From contig JACIWQ010000009.1 in NCBI GenBank assembly GCA_014360895.1, forward strand, positions 1-50,663: DNA of 50,663 nucleotides, in the 5' to 3' direction. This DNA is from Thermoflexales bacterium (GTDB lineage: Bacteria; Chloroflexota; Anaerolineae; B4-G1; DUEL01). Under the pieces are notes generated by a model. The model made no database searches, had not been told where the DNA came from, and saw nothing but the letters and a program-made list of their open reading frames with translations. Positions 5,218-39,508 of the stretch are shown piece by piece. The stretch's first letter is position 1. Each line of letters starts with the position of its first letter. The position numbers and the translations under genes are program-made.

Positions 5218-6405
5218 TCACGGGCACCGCACAATGTCTTGCGCCCAGAGGCAGTCCGCACAGGAGGGGCACCATCCCCAGCAGCCGTCGTTGGCCTCGG
5301 CAATGTCGCAGGCGTCCCGAAGTTGGCAGTCCACACAAGAGGGAAAGTTGAAGCGCCGCACCTCCGCCCGGAAGCGAACGTACTCATCCGAGGTCCAGAT
5401 GTCGGCCAGGCTCCGCTCGTTGACGTTCCCGAAGGTGTAGCGGGCCACGTTCTTGCGGCGGCCGAAGATGTAGTAGGGATAGGTGTGGGAGAGGGCATAA
5501 CAGGGGCTGACGCCCCCGTCCCACCCCACCACCAGCGCCCGGTTGGTGACGAAGCGGCAGCGCCGTTCGGCCCCCCAGTTCATCCGGGGGAGTTCCGCGA
5601 TCCCCCAGAGCAGCCATCCGCCGCTCTCCAGCGCCCACCCGGGGGGCAGCGGCAGCGACGGCGTCTCATCCCGCCGATAGAGCGCCTCCTCGGCCATCTC
5701 CGGCGTGTGCGGCAGGACGTGGGTGACCAGGACCCGGTTGGCCTCCAACCGCTGCGCCAGGTCGGAGAGCGCGGGCAAGTCGGCGACGTTTCGCTTCAGG
5801 ACGACGAACTCCAGTTGAATCCGGGGCAGCGCCCGCCCAAGCGCGTGCTTGATGCGGTTCAGGGCCTCCACGTTCGCCACCACCGCCCGTAGGTCCGCCC
5901 CCTGCCGGACGTCGGCGAAGATTTCCGGACGGGCCCCGTCCACCGAGATGCTCAGCGCGTCCACCCCCATCTCCACCAGCGCCTGCGCCCGCTCCTCGTC
6001 CAGCAGCGTGCCGTTGGTGCTGACGGTCACCCGGACGCCCAGGGCCTTCACCGCCGCCAGGTAGTCCAGCGCGCGGGGGTGGGCGAAGGGCTCCCCGTAC
6101 CCGCCGAAGAAGACCTCCCGCAGGTCGGGCAATTCCCGCAGTCCCGCCAGCACCCGCTCAAAGGTCGCGTCGGTCATATCCGCCAGCGGCTCTCCCCAGA
6201 CGTTGCGGACGCAGGTCCGGCAGGCCAGGTTGCAGCGGGTGGTGATTTCCAGGTAGACCTTGCGGACGTCGGGCCGGAGCGGGTGCAGGACGATGCCCCC
6301 CTCCGTCTCCTGCAAGAGCATCTCCGCCCCGGCCTTTAGCCCGTACCGGCGCCGCAGCCCCTCCGGCAGCACCACTCTCCCTTCAGCATCCACTCGTACC
6401 CTCAC
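5218..6405 (-). CDS. SpoVT/AbrB-radical SAM-SPASM protein, tungsten-oxidoreductase maturase-like
   Basis: 395 residues. Residues 1-45 form a SpoVT/AbrB-like swapped-hairpin domain (RVVLPEGLRRRYGL). The radical SAM core follows with CNLACRTC (Cys 58, 62, 65), which binds the SAM-coordinated cluster. A Cys-rich SPASM-like tail (about 295-395) should bind auxiliary clusters. This AbrB-rSAM-SPASM order and the TTRCNL/CVRNVW/EPLADM segments match what I recall of the tungsten cofactor oxidoreductase radical SAM maturase family (TIGR04317). No aldehyde:ferredoxin oxidoreductase gene lies in the window, so the client enzyme would be elsewhere. It is followed upstream on the same strand by the double-UGA gene. 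The start abuts a TTCACGTTTCAC repeat. Confidence 0.8.
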   Translation of the reverse strand: MRVRVDAEGRVVLPEGLRRRYGLKAGAEMLLQETEGGIVLHPLRPDVRKVYLEITTRCNLACRTCVRNVWGEPLADMTDATFERVLAGLRELPDLREVFFGGYGEPFAHPRALDYLAAVKALGVRVTVSTNGTLLDEERAQALVEMGVDALSISVDGARPEIFADVRQGADLRAVVANVEALNRIKHALGRALPRIQLEFVVLKRNVADLPALSDLAQRLEANRVLVTHVLPHTPEMAEEALYRRDETPSLPLPPGWALESGGWLLWGIAELPRMNWGAERRCRFVTNRALVVGWDGGVSPCYALSHTYPYYIFGRRKNVARYTFGNVNERSLADIWTSDEYVRFRAEVRRFNFPSCVDCQLRDACDIAEANDGCWGWCPSCADCLWAQDIVRCP

Positions 6406-6480
6406 GTTTCACCCCTCACGTTTCACTTTTCACTTTTCACGTTTCACTCTTCACGTTTCACTCTTCACGTTTCACTTTTC
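6405..6480. repeat. TTCACGTTTCAC intergenic repeat, copy 1
   Basis: An imperfect tandem array of TTCACGTTTCAC/TTCACTTTTCAC units fills the space between the radical SAM gene and the double-UGA gene. The family recurs at 9233-9302, 17305-17342, 37917-37957, 38521-38565 and 38706-38795. It lies between genes in every case. Confidence 0.8.
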
Positions 6481-6784
6481 ACGCTTCACCCTCCCACGGC
6501 TCCTCAAACTGCAGCACGAACCTCCCATACCCGTCCACGTAGAAAATCATCTCCTTCGCCCCCGGCTTGAGGGTCGCCAGGAGTTTCCGGGAGACGTAGA
6601 CGGTCAGGTCGTCCGCCTCAAAGCGGACGAACTCTTCCGGATTTTCGGGTTCGCCCATCCGACCGGATGAGCCCTCAAAGAAGATTCATCAATCCAGGCA
6701 GACAAGGCGGCGGGCGATGTTGAGCACCCCGCCCCGCTGGCGGATGAAGTCCTGCAGCCAGGTTGAGGGAATCGCGACTTTCAT
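6479..6784 (-). CDS. Probable selenoprotein with tandem UGA (Sec-Sec) codons, CC/Se-motif-like
   Basis: Read from ATG 6784 (preceded by AAAGGAG), the frame runs 31 codons (MKVAIPSTWLQD...VCLD). It meets two adjacent UGA codons at 6689-6691 and 6686-6688, then continues 68 codons to UGA at 6479. Both halves look coding: the downstream part reads GEPENPEEFVRFEADDL then TVYVSRKLLA. The 101-residue layout resembles the small CC/Se motif (seleno)protein family, in which the motif is a Cys-Cys or Cys/Sec pair; here both positions would be selenocysteine. A conventional call would give a 31-residue stub and a separate 59-residue ORF from ATG 6658. A SECIS-like hairpin lies at 6653-6672. Its neighbour is a radical SAM/SPASM maturase. 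The role is unknown; a redox or metal-cofactor job is inferred. The alternative is a pseudogene. Confidence 0.72.
6653..6672 (-). promoter_or_regulatory. Candidate bacterial SECIS element
   Basis: On the minus strand an 8-bp stem (GCTCATCC with GGATGGGC, one G-U pair) closes a GGTC tetraloop. It starts 13 nt after the second UGA and 16 nt after the first. The E. coli fdhF SECIS also presents GGUC in its apical loop about 11 nt plus a short stem after UGA, and SelB reads that loop. No bulged U is obvious on the 5' side, so SelB recognition remains to be shown. Confidence 0.6.
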
Positions 6785-6822
6785 TTTTCTCCTTTAACCG
6801 TAGGGATGCAGAGATTACCAAG

Positions 6823-6853: not shown

Positions 6854-7405
6854 CTATTTCTTCGGCCCGATGGCGGGCAGGTCCACGTCCAGCAGCGCGG
6901 CCAGTTCCTCCCGCTGCGCCGCGTACTGCGGGTCCGCAAAGAGCGGCGTACAGGCCTCCAACTTGACCTGTCCGGCGGCCAGACGGTTGGCAAAGGCGAA
7001 GCAGGAGGCTTCGCCGCAGGCCTTACAGTTGGTGCGCGGCAGAAGTTTGTAGAGTTCCAGGCCGGTGGGACGGCGGCGGGTCTCGTAGTTGGGCTCAATC
7101 TGGTCCCGCCGCTCCCAGGTCCGGTTGACCAGGGCGATGATGCCCTCTATCTCCTTGATAGCCGCCTCCCGGTCCTCCACGTTGCTGACGGCAATCTGTG
7201 TCGGCTGGAAGACGACGTAGTGGCCGGCCTTGGTCCACCGCAGGGACGGGACCGCCGGTTCGTAGACCGCGCCGCGCAGAGTGGCGTTGAGGTACGGGAA
7301 GACCTCGCGGATGTCGTTGGGCAGGTGGGCGACCGCGCTGAACCGCTCCGCCCCCGGCTCACACGGCGGGGTGAAGACCTCCAGGTCGTATTTGTCTATC
7401 AGCAT
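6854..7405 (-). CDS. Fe-S domain protein (PF04060-like), copy 1
   Basis: 183 residues. A C-x2-C-x4-C-x16-C motif (NCKACGEASC, then Cys in KLEACTP) in the C-terminal third matches the 4Fe-4S FeS domain found in corrinoid Fe-S protein/CODH subunits and RnfB. The N-terminal ~120 residues form a conserved-looking domain shared with the gene at 9298-9828, which has the motifs VFPYLNA and an RR/RRR-LPRxNC lead-in in both. It lies upstream of the double-UGA gene on the same strand, separated by a repeat. A role as electron donor or metallocofactor carrier for the neighbouring maturase is inference. The start has GAGGGGG upstream. Confidence 0.78.
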   Translation of the reverse strand: MLIDKYDLEVFTPPCEPGAERFSAVAHLPNDIREVFPYLNATLRGAVYEPAVPSLRWTKAGHYVVFQPTQIAVSNVEDREAAIKEIEGIIALVNRTWERRDQIEPNYETRRRPTGLELYKLLPRTNCKACGEASCFAFANRLAAGQVKLEACTPLFADPQYAAQREELAALLDVDLPAIGPKK

Positions 7406-8476: not shown

Positions 8477-8842
8477 TCAGACCCGCCGGGCCAGCGCGGT
8501 GTAATCCGCCCCCAGCAGGGTGCTGATCTGGAATGCGACGTCCGCGAAGTACTGCTTCAGTTCGCTCAGGGCTATGTCCCGTTCCACGATAAGCGGGTGG
8601 GACTCGGCCTGATTCCGCAGCCGGTAGAACCGGTCCACCTCCTCCCTGGGCAGGTCCTCCCCCGCCTGCTGACGGGCCAGCAGGCTCTGGTAGAGCGCCT
8701 GGAACTCCTCCTCCAGCGCGCGGGCCTCCGGGTCGGCCTCCAGGCGCGCCTGGGCCTCCAAGTACTCCCGCACGGGCTCGCTGGAAGCCAGCGCTCGGCC
8801 CAGCGCCTCGCAGGCCCGCTGCAACTCTTCGGATAACGGCAT
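8477..8842 (-). CDS. YlbF/YmcA-family protein, copy 1
   Basis: 121 residues from ATG 8842, with AAGGAGG upstream; the open frame before it lacks a good start. The sequence is nearly all helical (SEELQRACEALGRAL...), which is typical of the Com_YlbF family. In B. subtilis YlbF, YmcA and YaaT form the RicAFT complex, which binds 4Fe-4S clusters and aids RNA processing and competence. It lies 11 bp after the second YlbF-family gene, so the pair is probably an operon. No YaaT homologue is in the window. Confidence 0.75.
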   Translation of the reverse strand: MPLSEELQRACEALGRALASSEPVREYLEAQARLEADPEARALEEEFQALYQSLLARQQAGEDLPREEVDRFYRLRNQAESHPLIVERDIALSELKQYFADVAFQISTLLGADYTALARRV

Positions 8843-8853
8843 CGTCGTCCTCC

Positions 8854-9210
8854 TTATCCACAGCAACTGCGCCGGGCGTTGGCGGCGAAATCCACCCCCG
8901 CCGCCCGGCTGATAGCCTCGTCCACCTCCTGGAACAGGGCCCGCACGGCGCTCTCCGCCGCCCGGTATGCCTGGACCGAGGGGTAGGCTTCCAGTTGAGC
9001 CTGGAGTTGCCGCAGGGCCCGCAGGTGCTCGGCGCCGTCGCCCCGCCCCCACTGGAGCGCGGACTGGTGGGCGCGGATCTGCTGCAGCAGGTCCTGTACC
9101 GCCTCGTCGTGATTGATGGCCCGCGCGGCCTCCCAGAGCGCCCGAAACTCCGGCGTCTCCCGCACGGCCTCCACCAACTCCCGAATCGCCAATCCTACAT
9201 CAACTTCCAT
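8854..9210 (-). CDS. YlbF/YmcA-family protein, copy 2, Cys-Cys tail
   Basis: 118 residues, helical, with the YlbF-type core (INHDEAVQDLLQQIRAHQ) and a C-terminal GVDFAANARRSCCG. The terminal CCG could bind a cluster or metal, in line with the Fe-S binding reported for the RicAFT proteins. It is upstream of the first copy on the same transcript, with a GGAGGTGGAG-type ribosome-binding site. A TTCACGTTTCAC repeat separates it from the Fe-S gene upstream. Confidence 0.75.
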   Translation of the reverse strand: MEVDVGLAIRELVEAVRETPEFRALWEAARAINHDEAVQDLLQQIRAHQSALQWGRGDGAEHLRALRQLQAQLEAYPSVQAYRAAESAVRALFQEVDEAISRAAGVDFAANARRSCCG

Positions 9211-9232: not shown

Positions 9233-9302
9233 CTTCACGTTTCACGTCTCACTTTTCACGTCTCACGTTTCACGCCTCACGCTTCACGCTTCACGTTTCA
9301 CA
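9233..9302. repeat. TTCACGTTTCAC intergenic repeat, copy 2
   Basis: A tandem array of TTCACGTCTCAC/TTCACGCTTCAC units. It overlaps the last few bases of the Fe-S gene ending at 9298. Confidence 0.8.
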
Positions 9303-17304: not shown

Positions 17305-17342
17305 TCACTTTTCACGCTTCACGTTTCACTTTTCACGTTTTA
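17305..17342. repeat. TTCACGTTTCAC intergenic repeat, copy 3
   Basis: A short array between lpdA and the GcvH-like gene. It reaches into the last codons of lpdA. Confidence 0.7.
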
Positions 17343-18739
17343 CGATGATAGTGAATCGTCGCCCCTTGGAAGCCCAGCGCGGCCTCCAGGACAGCCTCCG
17401 TCAGCGTGGGATGGGCGTGGGTCGTCCAGGCCAGGTCGTCGGCGGTGGCGCCGGTCTGCACCGCCAGCGCCCCCTCGGCGATCAGTTCGGTGACATGCGG
17501 GCCCATCATATGGACGCCCAGCACCCGCCCGCTGCCGGCCTCGCAGACGATGCGGACCAGCCCCTCCGTCTCCCCCAGAATCTGGGCGCGGGGATTGGCG
17601 GAGAACGGGAACTGGAGCACCCGGACGTCGGCCCCCTGCTGGCGGGCCTGCTCCTCCGTCAGCCCGACGCCCGCCACTTCCGGTGAGGTAAAGATGGCAC
17701 TGGGCACGGAGCGGTAGTCCACCGCCCGCTTCTGCCCGGCGATGTTCTCCACCGCCACCCGCCCATCCACCATCGCCTTGTGGGCCAGCATCATCCCGCC
17801 CACCGCGTCGCCGATCGCCCAGACGTTCGGGACGTTCGTCCGCAGGTACTCGTCCACCGCAATGGCGCGCCGGTTCATCCGGATACCGACCTCCTCCAGC
17901 CCCAGGTCGGCGGTGTTGGGCCAGCGGCCCGTCGCCAAAAGGACCCGGTCGCCCTCCACGGCCTCTTCGCCCTTCGCTGTGGTGAACCGGACCCGCAGCC
18001 CACCCTCCGCCTCCTCCACAGCCTGGACCGTCGCGCCGGTCCGGATGTCCATCCCTCGCCGCCGCAGGACCACCGCCAGCCGTTTGGCAATGGCCTCGTC
18101 GGCCGCGCCGGGAAGGAGATTCGGCATCATCTCCAGGACGGTCACCCGGCTCCCCAGGGCCTGGTAGATGCAGGCAAACTCCAGCCCGATCACCCCGCCG
18201 CCGATGACAATCAGGTGGGCCGGGAGGGTGGAGACGTCTAGGGCCTCCGTACTGGTCACCACGCCGGGCAGGTCCAGGCCCGGGATGGGCGGGCGGGCCA
18301 TCACCGAGCCGGGGGCCAGGATGATGTGGCGGACGACGACCTCCGTCGTCCCCCCGGCCCCGTCGGCCACGGCGAGGGCGTCCGGGCGGACCAGGCGGCC
18401 CCGGCCCCGGACCACCGTCACCTTCCACTCCTTGAGCAATTGCTCCACGCCGCCCACCAGCCGCTCCACGGCGGCCCGCTGGTAGGCCATCATCCCCTCC
18501 AGGTCGGGCGCGGCCTCCGGGATGCGGACCCCGTACTCCGCGGCGCGGCGGGCGCGGGCCAGCAAGTCCGTCGCGGTGACCAGTGCCTTCGTCGGGATGC
18601 AGCCGACGTTAAGGCAGGTCCCGCCGACGCGCGCCTCCTCCACCAGCGCGACGCGCATCCCCAGTTGGGCAGCCCGCAGCGCGGCCACGTACCCGCCGGG
18701 TCCCGCCCCCAGAATCGCGACATCGTAGACCTCGGTCAT
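17333..18739 (-). CDS. lpdA: Dihydrolipoamide dehydrogenase
   Basis: 468 residues, full length. N-terminal FAD site GAGPGG, redox-active disulfide GGTCLNVGC (Cys 42 and 47), NAD site GGGVIGLEFA and the C-terminal base HAHPTLTEAV are all present. It reoxidises the dihydrolipoyl arm of a carrier, here most likely the adjacent GcvH-like protein, passing electrons to NAD. No 2-oxoacid dehydrogenase subunits are nearby, supporting a specialised role. Confidence 0.93.
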   Translation of the reverse strand: MTEVYDVAILGAGPGGYVAALRAAQLGMRVALVEEARVGGTCLNVGCIPTKALVTATDLLARARRAAEYGVRIPEAAPDLEGMMAYQRAAVERLVGGVEQLLKEWKVTVVRGRGRLVRPDALAVADGAGGTTEVVVRHIILAPGSVMARPPIPGLDLPGVVTSTEALDVSTLPAHLIVIGGGVIGLEFACIYQALGSRVTVLEMMPNLLPGAADEAIAKRLAVVLRRRGMDIRTGATVQAVEEAEGGLRVRFTTAKGEEAVEGDRVLLATGRWPNTADLGLEEVGIRMNRRAIAVDEYLRTNVPNVWAIGDAVGGMMLAHKAMVDGRVAVENIAGQKRAVDYRSVPSAIFTSPEVAGVGLTEEQARQQGADVRVLQFPFSANPRAQILGETEGLVRIVCEAGSGRVLGVHMMGPHVTELIAEGALAVQTGATADDLAWTTHAHPTLTEAVLEAALGFQGATIHYHRKT

Positions 18740-25473: not shown

Positions 25474-25615
<142 letters not shown>

Positions 25616-27962: not shown

Positions 27963-28071
27963 ACGGTGACTGTTCGGCATTGGTCTCATCACCGGGCGCG
28001 GGGAACGGGGGCCGCCCGGCCCGCCGCTCCCCGCCTGCGGAATCTGACGGAGGAGAAGAGAACTGAGGCCT

Positions 28072-29631
28072 GTGGAGAAGGGATACTACAATCACATCAC
28101 CGATGATCTGGACGCGTTGCTCAACGTCCTGCCGGAAGACCTGCGCGAGCGGGTCCAACAAATTGGCCGGCGGGATGAGTTGCTGGAAGTGATTCTGGAC
28201 CTGGGACGGGTACCCACCGCCCGCTACACCGACGGCGAGGTCGTCCTGAGCGAACGGGAGGTCACCCGGGAGGACATCCAGCACGTGGTGGAACGGGTGG
28301 GCGAGTTTGACGCCGACAACCGCGCCGGCATCGCCCGTACCCTCCACCGCATCGCCGCCATCCGCAACCGCAAGGGCGACATCGTCGGGCTGACCTGCCG
28401 GGTCGGGCGGGCCGTCTACGGCACCATCGCCATCATCCAGGACATCATTGAGAGCGGCAAAAGCATCCTCCTCCTGGGCCGGCCCGGCGTCGGCAAGACG
28501 ACCATGCTTCGGGAGGCCGCCCGGGTCCTGGCGGAGACGAAACGGGTCATCATCGTGGACACGTCCAACGAAATCGGCGGCGACGGCGACATCCCTCATC
28601 CCGCCGTCGGACGCGCGCGCCGAATGCAGGTGGAAATGCCCTCCCTCCAGCACGAGGTGATGATTGAGGCCGTGGAGAACCACAACCCCGAGGTCATCGT
28701 CATTGACGAAATCGGGAGGGAACTGGAGGCCCTGGCCGCGCGGACCATCGCCGAGCGGGGCGTCCAACTCATCGCCACCGCCCACGGCAACACCCTGGAT
28801 AACCTGCTCCTGAACCCCACCCTCTCCGACCTGGTCGGCGGGATTGAGAGCGTGACCCTTTCGGACGAGGAGGCGCGGCGGCGGGGCACCCAGAAGACCA
28901 TCCTGGAGCGGCGCGCGCCGCCGACGTTTGACGTCCTCATTGAAATCCAGGACCGCCAGCGGCTGCTCATCCACCACAGCGTGGCCGAATCGGTGGACGC
29001 ATTGCTCCGGGGCCGGCCTTTGCAGGCCGAACTCCGCTACCGGGACGCCTCGGGGGAGATTCGGGTGGAGAAAGCTAAACCGCCGTCGCTGGAGGAGCGG
29101 GAGGCCGGCCGCGCCCGCCCGTCCCCGGCAGGTCCGGCCCCCTCTCCGACGCCGCTGGCGCCCAAAATCCAGGAGCCGGTGCGCATCTTCCCCTACGGCA
29201 TCGCCCGCAACCGGCTGGAGCGGGCCGCCCGCCGCATGCAGGTCCCCGTCTACGTGGTGGACGAACTGGGTCAGGCAGACGCCTTCGTGACCACCAAGGG
29301 CTTCTTCCGCAAGCGCCCCCGGCTCATCACCGACGCTGAGCGCAAAGGCATCCCCGTCTACGTCCTGCGGGCCAACACCGTCGCTCAGATGGAGGCCTGC
29401 CTGAGCGATATCGCGGCGGAGAACCACCTGCCCGGCCCGCTGACGCCCGCCCTGCGGGAGGCGGACCAGGCCATCCGCCGCATCCTGGACGGCGACGCCG
29501 ACGAGGTGGAACTTTCCCCCCAGAACGCCTTCGTCCGCCGCCAGCAGCACGAAATGGCCCGGGAGGCCGGGCTTTCGTCCTACTCAGTGGGGGAAGAACC
29601 GAACCGGAGAGTCCGGATCACGAGGGCCTGA
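28072..29631 (+). CDS. AAA ATPase with R3H domain (SpoIIIAA/Ycf45-like)
   Basis: 519 residues from a GTG start. Walker [10 protein letters not shown] and Walker B VIVIDEIG lie in a single-ring ATPase like SpoIIIAA. A Pro-rich linker (about 345-365) is followed by a [21 protein letters not shown] region and a C-terminal R3H-type single-strand nucleic-acid-binding domain ([10 protein letters not shown]...[12 protein letters not shown]). The same architecture is the chloroplast Ycf45 family. The cellular role is not settled. The start codon context is weak. Confidence 0.85.
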
Positions 29632-31201: not shown

Positions 31202-31810
31202 ATGACCTGGACACTCCCTCGCTATCCGCTGCTCATCGTCATCTCCGGGCCGCCCGGGGTCGGGAAGGACTCCGTCCTGCGACGGATGAAGGAACTGGGC
31301 TACCCCTTCCACTTCGTCGTCACCGCCACCGACCGGCCCCCGCGCCCCGGCGAGGTCCACGGGGAGGATTACTTCTTCCTCTCCACCGAAGAATTCCTGC
31401 GCCTGGAGCGGGAAGGGGAACTCTTGGAGCACGCCGTCGTCTACGGGGAGCACAAGGGAGTACCCAAACAGCAGGTCCGGGACGCCTTCGCCTCCGGCCG
31501 GGACGTCATCATGCGGGTGGACGTGCAGGGCGCGGCGACCATCCGCAAACTGGCTCCGGAGGCGGTCCTCATCTTCCTGACCGCCGAATCCAAAGAGGCA
31601 CTGGTCCGCCGCCTGACGGGGCGCGGGACCGAGACGCCGGAGAAACTGGCCGAACGCATCGGGAAGATAGAGTGGGAAATGAGCCGGATCGGGGAGTTTG
31701 ACTACGTGGTGGTCAACCGGGAAGGGGAACTGGATCGCGCCGTGGCCCAGATTGCGGCCATCGTGGAGGCGGAGCACTGCCGGGTTCACCCGCGCCGGGT
31801 CCAACTATGA
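31202..31810 (+). CDS. gmk: Guanylate kinase
   Basis: 202 residues from ATG 31202 with AAGGAAGG upstream. GMP to GDP. The P-loop is GPPGVGKDS: the usual Ser/Thr after GK is Asp here, a departure worth noting since that residue coordinates Mg. The GMP-binding RPPRPGEVHGEDYFF and DVQGAATI segments are canonical. The stop overlaps the nth start (ATGA). Confidence 0.9.
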   Translation: MTWTLPRYPLLIVISGPPGVGKDSVLRRMKELGYPFHFVVTATDRPPRPGEVHGEDYFFLSTEEFLRLEREGELLEHAVVYGEHKGVPKQQVRDAFASGRDVIMRVDVQGAATIRKLAPEAVLIFLTAESKEALVRRLTGRGTETPEKLAERIGKIEWEMSRIGEFDYVVVNREGELDRAVAQIAAIVEAEHCRVHPRRVQL

Positions 31811-32502
31811 CCGACCGAATTCGCCGCATTCATCAGCGATTGGTAGCAGAGTACGGTGAGCCGCAATGGACGCCGCGCGACCCGCTGGCGGTCCTGGTCT
31901 CCACCATCCTCTCCCAGAACACCAACGACCTTAATCGGGACCGGGCATACGCGCGGTTGCGGGAGCGGTTCCCCACCTGGGAGGCCGTCCGGGACGCCCC
32001 GCTGGAAGAACTGGTGACGGCGATCCGTCCGGCGGGACTGGCGCCCACCAAAGCCCCGCGCATCCAGGAGACGCTGCGGCGCATCGGGGCCGAACGGGGC
32101 CGGTTCTCCCTGGATTTTCTGGCCGAACTGCCGCTGGAGGCAGCGCGGGCCTGGCTCCTCTCCATCCCCGGCATCGGCCCCAAGACGGCGGCCATCGTTC
32201 TCCTCTTCGCCTTTGGCCGCCCCGCCTTCCCCGTGGATACCCACATCCATCGGGTATCCCGACGGCTGGGACTGATCCCCGCGCGGGCCACCCGGGAGCA
32301 GGCCCATACGCTCCTGGAGGAACTCATCCCCCCCGAACTCTACTACCCCCTGCACCTGAACCTCATCGCGCTGGGGCGGGACGTCTGTCACCCCCGCAAC
32401 CCAGAATGCAACCGCTGCGCCCTGCGGGACGAGTGCGATTTCTATCGCCAGAGGCAGGCGGAACCCTATGGCTCTGCACCTGATCCTCATCCGTCACGCT
32501 GA
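31807..32502 (+). CDS. nth: Endonuclease III-like DNA glycosylase
   Basis: 231 residues. The helix-hairpin-helix LLSIPGIGPKTAA contains the catalytic Lys, VDTHIHRVSRRLG the catalytic Asp. A C-x6-C-x2-C-x5-C cluster loop lies near the C-terminus (CHPRNPECNRCALRDEC). Base-excision repair of oxidised pyrimidines. It overlaps the next gene by 35 bp. Confidence 0.9.
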   Translation: MTDRIRRIHQRLVAEYGEPQWTPRDPLAVLVSTILSQNTNDLNRDRAYARLRERFPTWEAVRDAPLEELVTAIRPAGLAPTKAPRIQETLRRIGAERGRFSLDFLAELPLEAARAWLLSIPGIGPKTAAIVLLFAFGRPAFPVDTHIHRVSRRLGLIPARATREQAHTLLEELIPPELYYPLHLNLIALGRDVCHPRNPECNRCALRDECDFYRQRQAEPYGSAPDPHPSR

Positions 32503-37901: not shown

Positions 37902-37916
37902 TCCTTACCTCCTCAC

Positions 37917-37957
37917 ATTTTACGTTTCACGTTTCACGCTTCACGTTTCGCGTTTCG
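37917..37957. repeat. TTCACGTTTCAC intergenic repeat, copy 4
   Basis: A short array between rplJ and rplL. Confidence 0.75.
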
Positions 37958-38503: not shown

Positions 38504-38566
38504 CCGACATCACCTCCTTCCGTATCACGTTTCACGCTTCACGCTTCACGCATCACGCTTCACGTT

Positions 38567-38599
38567 AAAAAGAAACCCCCGCGCCAGCCGACGCGGGGG
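38567..38599 (-). terminator. L10 leader attenuator terminator
   Basis: CCCCCGCG (38592-38599 and pairing 38576-38583) forms a GC stem on the minus strand followed by TTTCTTTTT (38567-38575). It lies between the L10 leader and rplJ. Confidence 0.88.
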
Positions 38600-38708
38600 A
38601 GTCTTCCTCATCGGACATCCAATCAGCCCGATGAGGGAATGGACACGCTCTCCAGCCTCGGCAGGCAACTTTCAGCGCCCGTTGGCGCGCCTGCTGTCTT
38701 CGGCCTCA
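38600..38708 (-). ncRNA. Ribosomal protein L10 leader
   Basis: The minus strand carries GAAGACAGCAGGCGC, a variable arm, then CCTGCCGAGG, the core of the L10 leader that L10(L12)4 binds. A second stem CCTCATCGG/CCGATGAGG at 38606-38636 precedes the terminator. Together they should provide feedback attenuation of rplJL. Confidence 0.88.
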
Positions 38709-38795
38709 CTTTTCACGCTTCACGCTTCACGTTTCACGTTTCACGCATCACGTTTCACGCTTCACACGCTTCACGCATCACGTCTCGCGCCTCAC
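38706..38795. repeat. TTCACGTTTCAC intergenic repeat, copy 6
   Basis: The longest array of this family, between rplA and the L10 leader. It extends into the last codons of rplA. Another short array (38521-38565) is on the other side of the leader terminator. Confidence 0.8.
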
Positions 38796-39508
38796 GCCAC
38801 TTCCAGCGCCTGCACGGCCACCGGGTCCACCTTAATCCCCGGCCCCATAGAGGAGGCCAGGGTGACCTTACGGATATAGGTGCCTTTGGCGGCCGTAGGG
38901 CGGGCTTTTTTGACCGCGTCTATCGCGGCGGCCAGGTTCTCCAGCAGCGCCTGATTGGAGAAACTGACCCGTCCAATGGGGATATGCAGATTGGCCGTCT
39001 TATCCACGCGGAACTCGGCGCGGCCGGCCTTCGCCTCGGAAATCACCCGGGGCAGGTCTTCCGGCGGGACCACGGTGCCGGTCTTCGGGTTGGGCATTAG
39101 CCCGCGCGGGCCCAGGATACGGCCCAGGCGGCCCACCTTCCCCATCATATCCGGCACCGCGATGGCGACGTCAAAATCCGTCCAGCCGTCCTGAATCTTC
39201 TTGATCCCCTCGTCGTCGGAGATGACGTAATCCGCCCCGGCGGCTTCGGCGATGCGGGCGGCGTCGCCGGCCGCGAAGACCAGCACCCGCACTGTCTTGC
39301 CCAGGCCGTGGGGGAGCAGGACCACCCCCCGGACCTGCTGGTCCGCGTGGCGGGGGTCCACCCCCAAGCGGATGTGCAGGTCCACCGAGGCATCAAAGCC
39401 GGCGTATGAGGTCTCTTTGACCAGTTGGACCGCTTCCTGCGGCGAGTAGAGGCGGTTGCGGTCCACCTTCTTCAGTGCTTCCAGGTACTTCTTTCCTCGC
39501 TTCGGCAT
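38792..39508 (-). CDS. rplA: 50S ribosomal protein L1
   Basis: 238 residues, full length. [18 protein letters not shown] and the [18 protein letters not shown] (in part) C-terminus are signature. Binds 23S rRNA at the L1 stalk; in many bacteria also represses the rplKA mRNA. Confidence 0.97.

Follow-up and report, generated by a model that had tools for sequence, protein, structure and literature searches.

Sec insertion in bacteria is generally described as relying on one local hairpin per UGA, and the SECIS of Escherichia coli fdhF exposes GGUC in its loop. Eukaryotic SECIS elements are located in the 3' UTR. The published consensus for bacterial SECIS elements comprises a stem of 4-16 bp, a loop of 3-9 nt with G at its first two positions, a spacing of 16-37 nt and an MFE of at most -7.5 (PMC13188914). 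Two consecutive Sec residues have been described in the algal protein PDI_e (GUGUU motif), a case that its authors call the first of its kind (PMC7539508). The CC/Se motif family NF041239 is given one Sec (CxxU) in a 2026 review, and the adjacent UU motif occurs in none of the families in Table 1 of that review. An earlier note on the DNA studied here had called adjacent Sec-Sec pairs very rare, and they are indeed hardly ever reported: PDI_e was the case that we found, and the searchable literature yielded no description of consecutive Sec in bacteria.

We analyzed a stretch of 50,663 nucleotides from a Thermoflexales bacterium (contig JACIWQ010000009.1; hereafter the window), in which a gene on the minus strand contains two adjacent in-frame UGA codons. 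UU denotes the adjacent Sec-Sec pair encoded by UGA-UGA, and the UU gene, clade, and genomes are named after it. The features of the locus are as follows.

5218 to 6405, minus strand: tungsten cofactor oxidoreductase radical SAM maturase (TIGR04317), next downstream of the UU gene; 412.4 bits against a cut-off of 380
6479 to 6784, minus strand: UU gene, 101 amino acids with UGA codons 32 and 33 read as putative Sec and a terminal UGA stop at 6481-6479; assigned from homologues and from purifying selection on either side of the UGAs
6653 to 6672, minus strand: SECIS hairpin with 5' arm 6672-6665, loop GGUC 6664-6661, and 3' arm 6660-6653; assigned from covariation, codon constraint, fold, and published limits
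6691 to 6689 and 6688 to 6686, minus strand: tandem UGA-UGA, the candidate Sec codons; TGATGA in all clade homologues spanning the site
6789 to 6795, minus strand: Shine-Dalgarno-like AAAGGAG, 4 nt before the ATG at 6784; read directly
6854 to 7405, minus strand: 183-aa protein whose C-terminal part bears an Fe-S motif (PF04060), next upstream; found beside the UU gene in many loci

Re-reading of the minus strand confirmed the frame claimed in the earlier note, with ATG at 6784-6782, 31 codons, UGA-UGA, 68 codons, and the terminal UGA. TGATGA itself is not rare, occurring 31 times across both strands of the window and 17 times within frames of more than 60 codons. A long hairpin (8 bp) with a G[G/U] loop follows only the copy in the UU gene, the hairpins after two others being 5-6 bp long. 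Taken without comparison, the TGATGA and hairpin of the UU gene are weak evidence. What lifts the observation above chance is the recurrence of the same combination, with covariation, in ~42 genomes.

All four components of the Sec machinery (selA, selB, selD, and tRNA-Sec) were present in the source genome (3.57 Mb, 96% complete). The tRNA-Sec scored 70.7 bits and was called tRNA-SeC with anticodon UCA by ARAGORN, SelB was above its cut-off, and SelA scored 571.6 bits. SelD (335 bits) carries its own in-frame TGA of the Sec type, and past this UGA, GGCGCAGGUCCUGCGCC likewise offers an AGGUC loop by eye. SelB was undetected in four UU genomes with fragmented assemblies (G400, G410, G454, and G480), two of which had a clear tRNA-Sec, and a high-scoring tRNA-Sec was absent in 5 of the 12 UU genomes tested. 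Among the relatives, presence of the UU gene and of SelB was not significantly associated (p 0.28), because SelB is common.

A search with the protein query matched 19 of 99 related genomes (the source genome included); every full match contained at least two TGA, and identity of the other matches to the UU protein ranged from 91% to 36%. With a clade profile, 25 matching genomes were found among 396 of the class, and these too always had at least two TGA. For a contig scan, the 17 UU sequences together gave too variable a profile, and a subset profile was used instead; all 21 matches of that scan read UU. They came from Chloroflexota (Thermoflexus, Anaerolineae, and Chloroflexi assemblies) and from Bacillota (Geosporobacter ferrireducens, G. 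subterraneus, Thermosediminibacter litoriperuensis, and Clostridia assemblies). Nine more Bacillota loci were read, and 9/9 were UU, which brings the tally to ~42 genomes, ~28 in the class (Anaerolineae-type Chloroflexota) and 14 in Bacillota. No Cys, TAA, or TAG was found at either codon in clade homologues covering the site, whereas TAA and TAG do occur among the terminal stops of these genes, and the two halves shared one frame in every one of these homologues. Outside this count stands a partial match, L044 (G431, C282), which covers residues 40-99 only, without stops, inside a 269-codon frame. No relatives of the UU protein were found in phages, plasmids, or viral contigs.

Both halves of the gene are under purifying selection, dN being well below dS upstream and downstream of the UGAs. 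Among four genus members (six pairs), the 12 SECIS codons after the UGAs showed no synonymous change, while dS in the rest of the gene was 0.19-0.91. A sequencing error or a pseudogene might be suspected where the sources are mostly metagenome assemblies, as here. The same TGATGA is nevertheless present in isolates, among them Geosporobacter ferrireducens, whose complete chromosome (NZ_CP017269) carries it, and Thermosediminibacter, and dN/dS is low; we regard this explanation as refuted by independent genomes and its probability as negligible. A genome-wide change of code, with UGA read as tryptophan or another sense codon, would also keep the frame open, but UGA is also the terminal stop of most UU genes (in 26 genes: 17 TGA, 6 TAA, and 3 TAG), the Sec machinery is present, and relatives show Cys or Sec at the site rather than Trp. 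Gene structure disfavors such a change, and it has next to no probability in our estimate.

We then examined the hairpin, GCUCAUCC-GGUC-GGAUGGGC at 6672-6653 on the minus strand. The hairpin, with its 8-bp stem and GGUC tetraloop, starts 13 nt past the second UGA, as claimed in the earlier note. The loop begins 21 nt from the second UGA and 24 nt from the first; loop, stem, and spacing fall within the published limits for both codons (PMC13188914). The 35-nt stretch containing the hairpin had a folding energy of -13.8 kcal/mol, likewise inside the limits but not significant in itself (z -1.3), and the minimum-energy fold of a longer 71-nt stretch, taken in isolation, did not contain the hairpin. 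No SECIS model of Rfam matched at the hairpin, the sole match there being to SNORD125 by chance (E 1).

Comparison among homologues was more informative. A hairpin with a loop that is mostly GGUC follows UGA-UGA in 42 of 43 distinct UU sequences. The sole sequence without it, L119, comes from genome G1031, where it is the second UU copy; it is missing eight codons, the entire hairpin among them, is probably a decayed paralogue, and provides a natural control for the SECIS. In L129, the hairpin sits one codon later and is rebuilt from different codons (CCGUUA GGUC UAACGG). Across the 41 remaining sequences, the six core pairs were standard in 99.6% of cells. The covariation score was 0.340 against 0.188 +/- 0.015 in shuffles, with 0/500 shuffles reaching it, and two-sided changes numbered 23 cells against 10.3 in shuffles; these shuffle figures, like the binomial ones, ignore relatedness and therefore overstate significance. 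When the partner column was shifted by 1 to 3 positions, the score was at most 0.047. The closing pair was AU in 20 sequences, CG in 18, UA in 1, and UG in 1, and a second variable pair was AU in 34, GU in 4, and GC in 3. The closing pair tracks coding, with Ser TCC and Arg CGG giving C-G, Ser TCA and Leu CTG/TTG giving A-U, and Ser TCT and Gln CAG giving U-A. The independent, repeated switches of this pair and the rebuilt hairpin of L129 do not depend on relatedness. The Gly codon of the loop was GGT in 24 of the first 26 sequences, as against 16% for Gly codons in the remainder of these genes; the Pro codon ended in A or G in every one. The label of a GGUC-loop SECIS given in the earlier note is appropriate. 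Like the fdhF-type SECIS of E. coli, it is a short hairpin downstream of UGA with an exposed GGUC; it differs in that a single element seems to act on both UGAs of a pair, from distances of 21 and 24 nt.

The 3' arm of the hairpin contains an in-frame ATG, and the locus could in principle consist of two short genes, a 31-codon open reading frame followed by a restart at this ATG to give a 59-codon frame. An ATG stands at that position in many relatives (GTG in L040 and L041), but L130 and L134 have ACG there and L135 has GCG. The residues from the UGAs to the ATG are conserved, sister families read through the site with Cys, Ala, or Gly, and the structural model is a single compact domain. Moreover, a two-gene arrangement needs neither UGA as the stop nor a GGU loop kept in a hairpin. 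We consider it very improbable.

The relationship of the UU protein to the CC/Se motif family was examined next. The earlier note had suggested a resemblance to this family, and the resemblance is real, NF041239 aligning across the UGAs with an E value of 1.3e-6. The score of 28.4 bits is, however, below the curated cut-off of 40, and the UU sequences form a separate clade that is wholly UU. In an unrooted tree calculated without the motif columns, the UU sequences made up one branch with support of 99/100 and a long joining branch; the UU clade is probably a sister of NF041239 rather than a member. NF041239 is common in Bacillota (90 of 398 genomes), and most of the loci that we read had one Sec, with Ala, Cys, or Gly as the next residue (GGUAG, GGUCG, and GGUGG). 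Sec-Cys was found at the site in L090, L095, and L098, and the UU form and a single-Sec paralogue coexist in several genomes. Among distant relatives in Chloroflexota, L017, L018, L020, and L022 have CC, and another distant relative, L019 (G251), has the order Cys-Sec (CU) rather than Sec first. The argument from Sec/Cys pairing rests on the sister families, because the UU clade has no Cys version. In genome G874 (C13), two NF041239 matches at 31701-31967 and 28056-28307 have one in-frame TAA or TAG. The UU protein and NF041239 (Moorella-type) are alike in length, in alignment across the UGAs, in Sec at the first motif position, and in predicted fold, whereas the NF041239 members read have at most one Sec and the UU clade has two.

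These comparisons bear on whether only one of the UGAs encodes Sec, the other being a true stop in most rounds of translation, yielding a short peptide, or being misread as another residue. One SECIS usually serves one UGA, the sister family carries Sec at the first position only, and two recodings in a row would be inefficient. Against this, both UGAs are equally invariant across two phyla, both lie within the published 16-37 nt spacing, and purifying selection continues past the second UGA. Decoding of a single UGA is accordingly improbable in our view, and it is highly probable that both adjacent UGAs are decoded as Sec, as the earlier note had proposed; the machinery, the invariant UGA-UGA in ~42 genomes, and the conserved hairpin all support this reading. 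The algal PDI_e shares the consecutive Sec residues but is eukaryotic and belongs to the protein disulphide isomerase family, whereas the UU gene has one in-frame hairpin right after the codons.

The predicted structure of the window protein (pLDDT 94.4, pTM 0.86) places both Sec at the turn joining strands 20-30 and 34-43. Its best structural neighbors were of the IscA, SufA, and HesB type, with weak similarity (E 0.02, TM about 0.4), and a model of the single-Sec sister matched IscA/SufA clearly (E 3e-4, probability 1.00, TM 0.63). Profile comparison with IscA/SufA/ErpA, for which the IscA sequence was checked against 1s98, gave E values of 1.2e-4 with the mixed family and 4.8e-5 with the mostly single-Sec family, and a UU-only profile gave no significant match to IscA. 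In the profile alignment, the first Sec (position 32) fell on the IscA ligand Cys35. No Pfam family matched the window protein, no solved structure was similar to it by sequence, and the sister-family sequence was far below the cut-offs of the HesB-like families (TIGR01911 and NF038090). The UU protein is predicted to have an IscA/HesB-like (A-type iron-sulphur carrier) fold. It would be IscA-like in fold and not a member of that family, because the C-terminal Cys-Gly-Cys of IscA is absent. With IscA/SufA/ErpA and the HesB-like selenoproteins, it would share the predicted fold, and the first Sec is placed at Cys35; from the A-type carriers (PF01521), it differs in the replacement of Cys35 by Sec32, the second adjacent Sec, and the lack of a C-terminal Cys pair.

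In many Chloroflexota loci, the UU gene is again accompanied by the maturase, by the 183-aa Fe-S protein, or by the two together, and a protein weakly similar to the 183-aa one is also present in Geosporobacter. The maturase was found in 12 of 19 UU genomes versus 20 of 80 others (p 0.0024, a value that ignores relatedness), and two genus members (G401 and G403) lack both the UU gene and the maturase. Eight Bacillota loci have the order ferredoxin, aldehyde:ferredoxin oxidoreductase (AOR), and UU gene, followed in seven of them by a hydrogenase-like gene. The source genome has seven AOR-type genes, one of which is 66% identical to the UU-adjacent AOR of Thermosediminibacter and sits away from the UU gene. 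Geosporobacter and some others have different genes near the UU gene, namely an ArsE-like thioredoxin, ArsD/ArsA, and a SaoE-like permease. We infer that tungsten or soft-metal handling is the shared thread of these neighborhoods.

Several other elements were noted in the window. An adjacent pair of YlbF-like genes lies on the minus strand at 8854-9210 and 8483-8842; the former resembles the halo-CC-star protein HcsL below the cut-off and ends in Ser-Cys-Cys-Gly, and the latter, which lacks the Cys pair, appears to be its partner. Arrays of a 7-base unit (TCACGTT and variants) occur at 6402-6489, 9234-9301, 17305-17344, 37913-37956, 38525-38564, and 38706-38796, with one array immediately following the UU gene. 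A SAM riboswitch (25474-25613, 91 bits) and a ribosomal protein L10 leader (38561-38721, 58.7 bits) were detected on the minus strand. On the plus strand, a 519-aa open reading frame (28072-29631) of this Chloroflexota genome shows similarity, below the cut-off (E 1e-18), to stage III sporulation protein AA.

In the mechanism that we propose, SelB and tRNA-Sec would decode both UGAs, guided by one SECIS within working distance of both; the first UGA would be recoded with the loop ~24 nt ahead and the second with the loop 21 nt ahead. The use of a single SECIS is suggested by the anatomy of the locus, as there is one hairpin and both codons are in range. Sec32 would stand in for the cluster-ligand Cys35 of IscA, and Sec33 would add a neighboring selenolate. 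The resulting Sec-Sec pair would most likely form a soft-metal, Fe-S, or redox center, which may serve in making or servicing tungsten-containing aldehyde:ferredoxin-type oxidoreductases. A role in the maturation of tungsten enzymes, or in a related soft-metal task, is offered as a tentative hypothesis. The full combination is possible, if rather more doubtful than probable: a single SECIS would direct two Sec insertions in succession, and the resulting protein of IscA-like fold, with its obligatory vicinal diselenol/diselenide, would handle metal or clusters on behalf of tungsten oxidoreductases.

The fact that Cys never takes the place of Sec in the clade suggests a need for selenium at both positions, where the Sec-Sec pair would constitute unusual chemistry. 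Gene finders that treat UGA as a stop should split or miss UU genes, and the family is therefore probably under-counted. The UU clade makes it testable whether, and how, SelB delivers twice in succession from one SECIS. If the proposal is true, these genes would represent the first natural processive Sec decoding system of bacteria, and the Sec-Sec pair would be a new type of selenium-based metal site.
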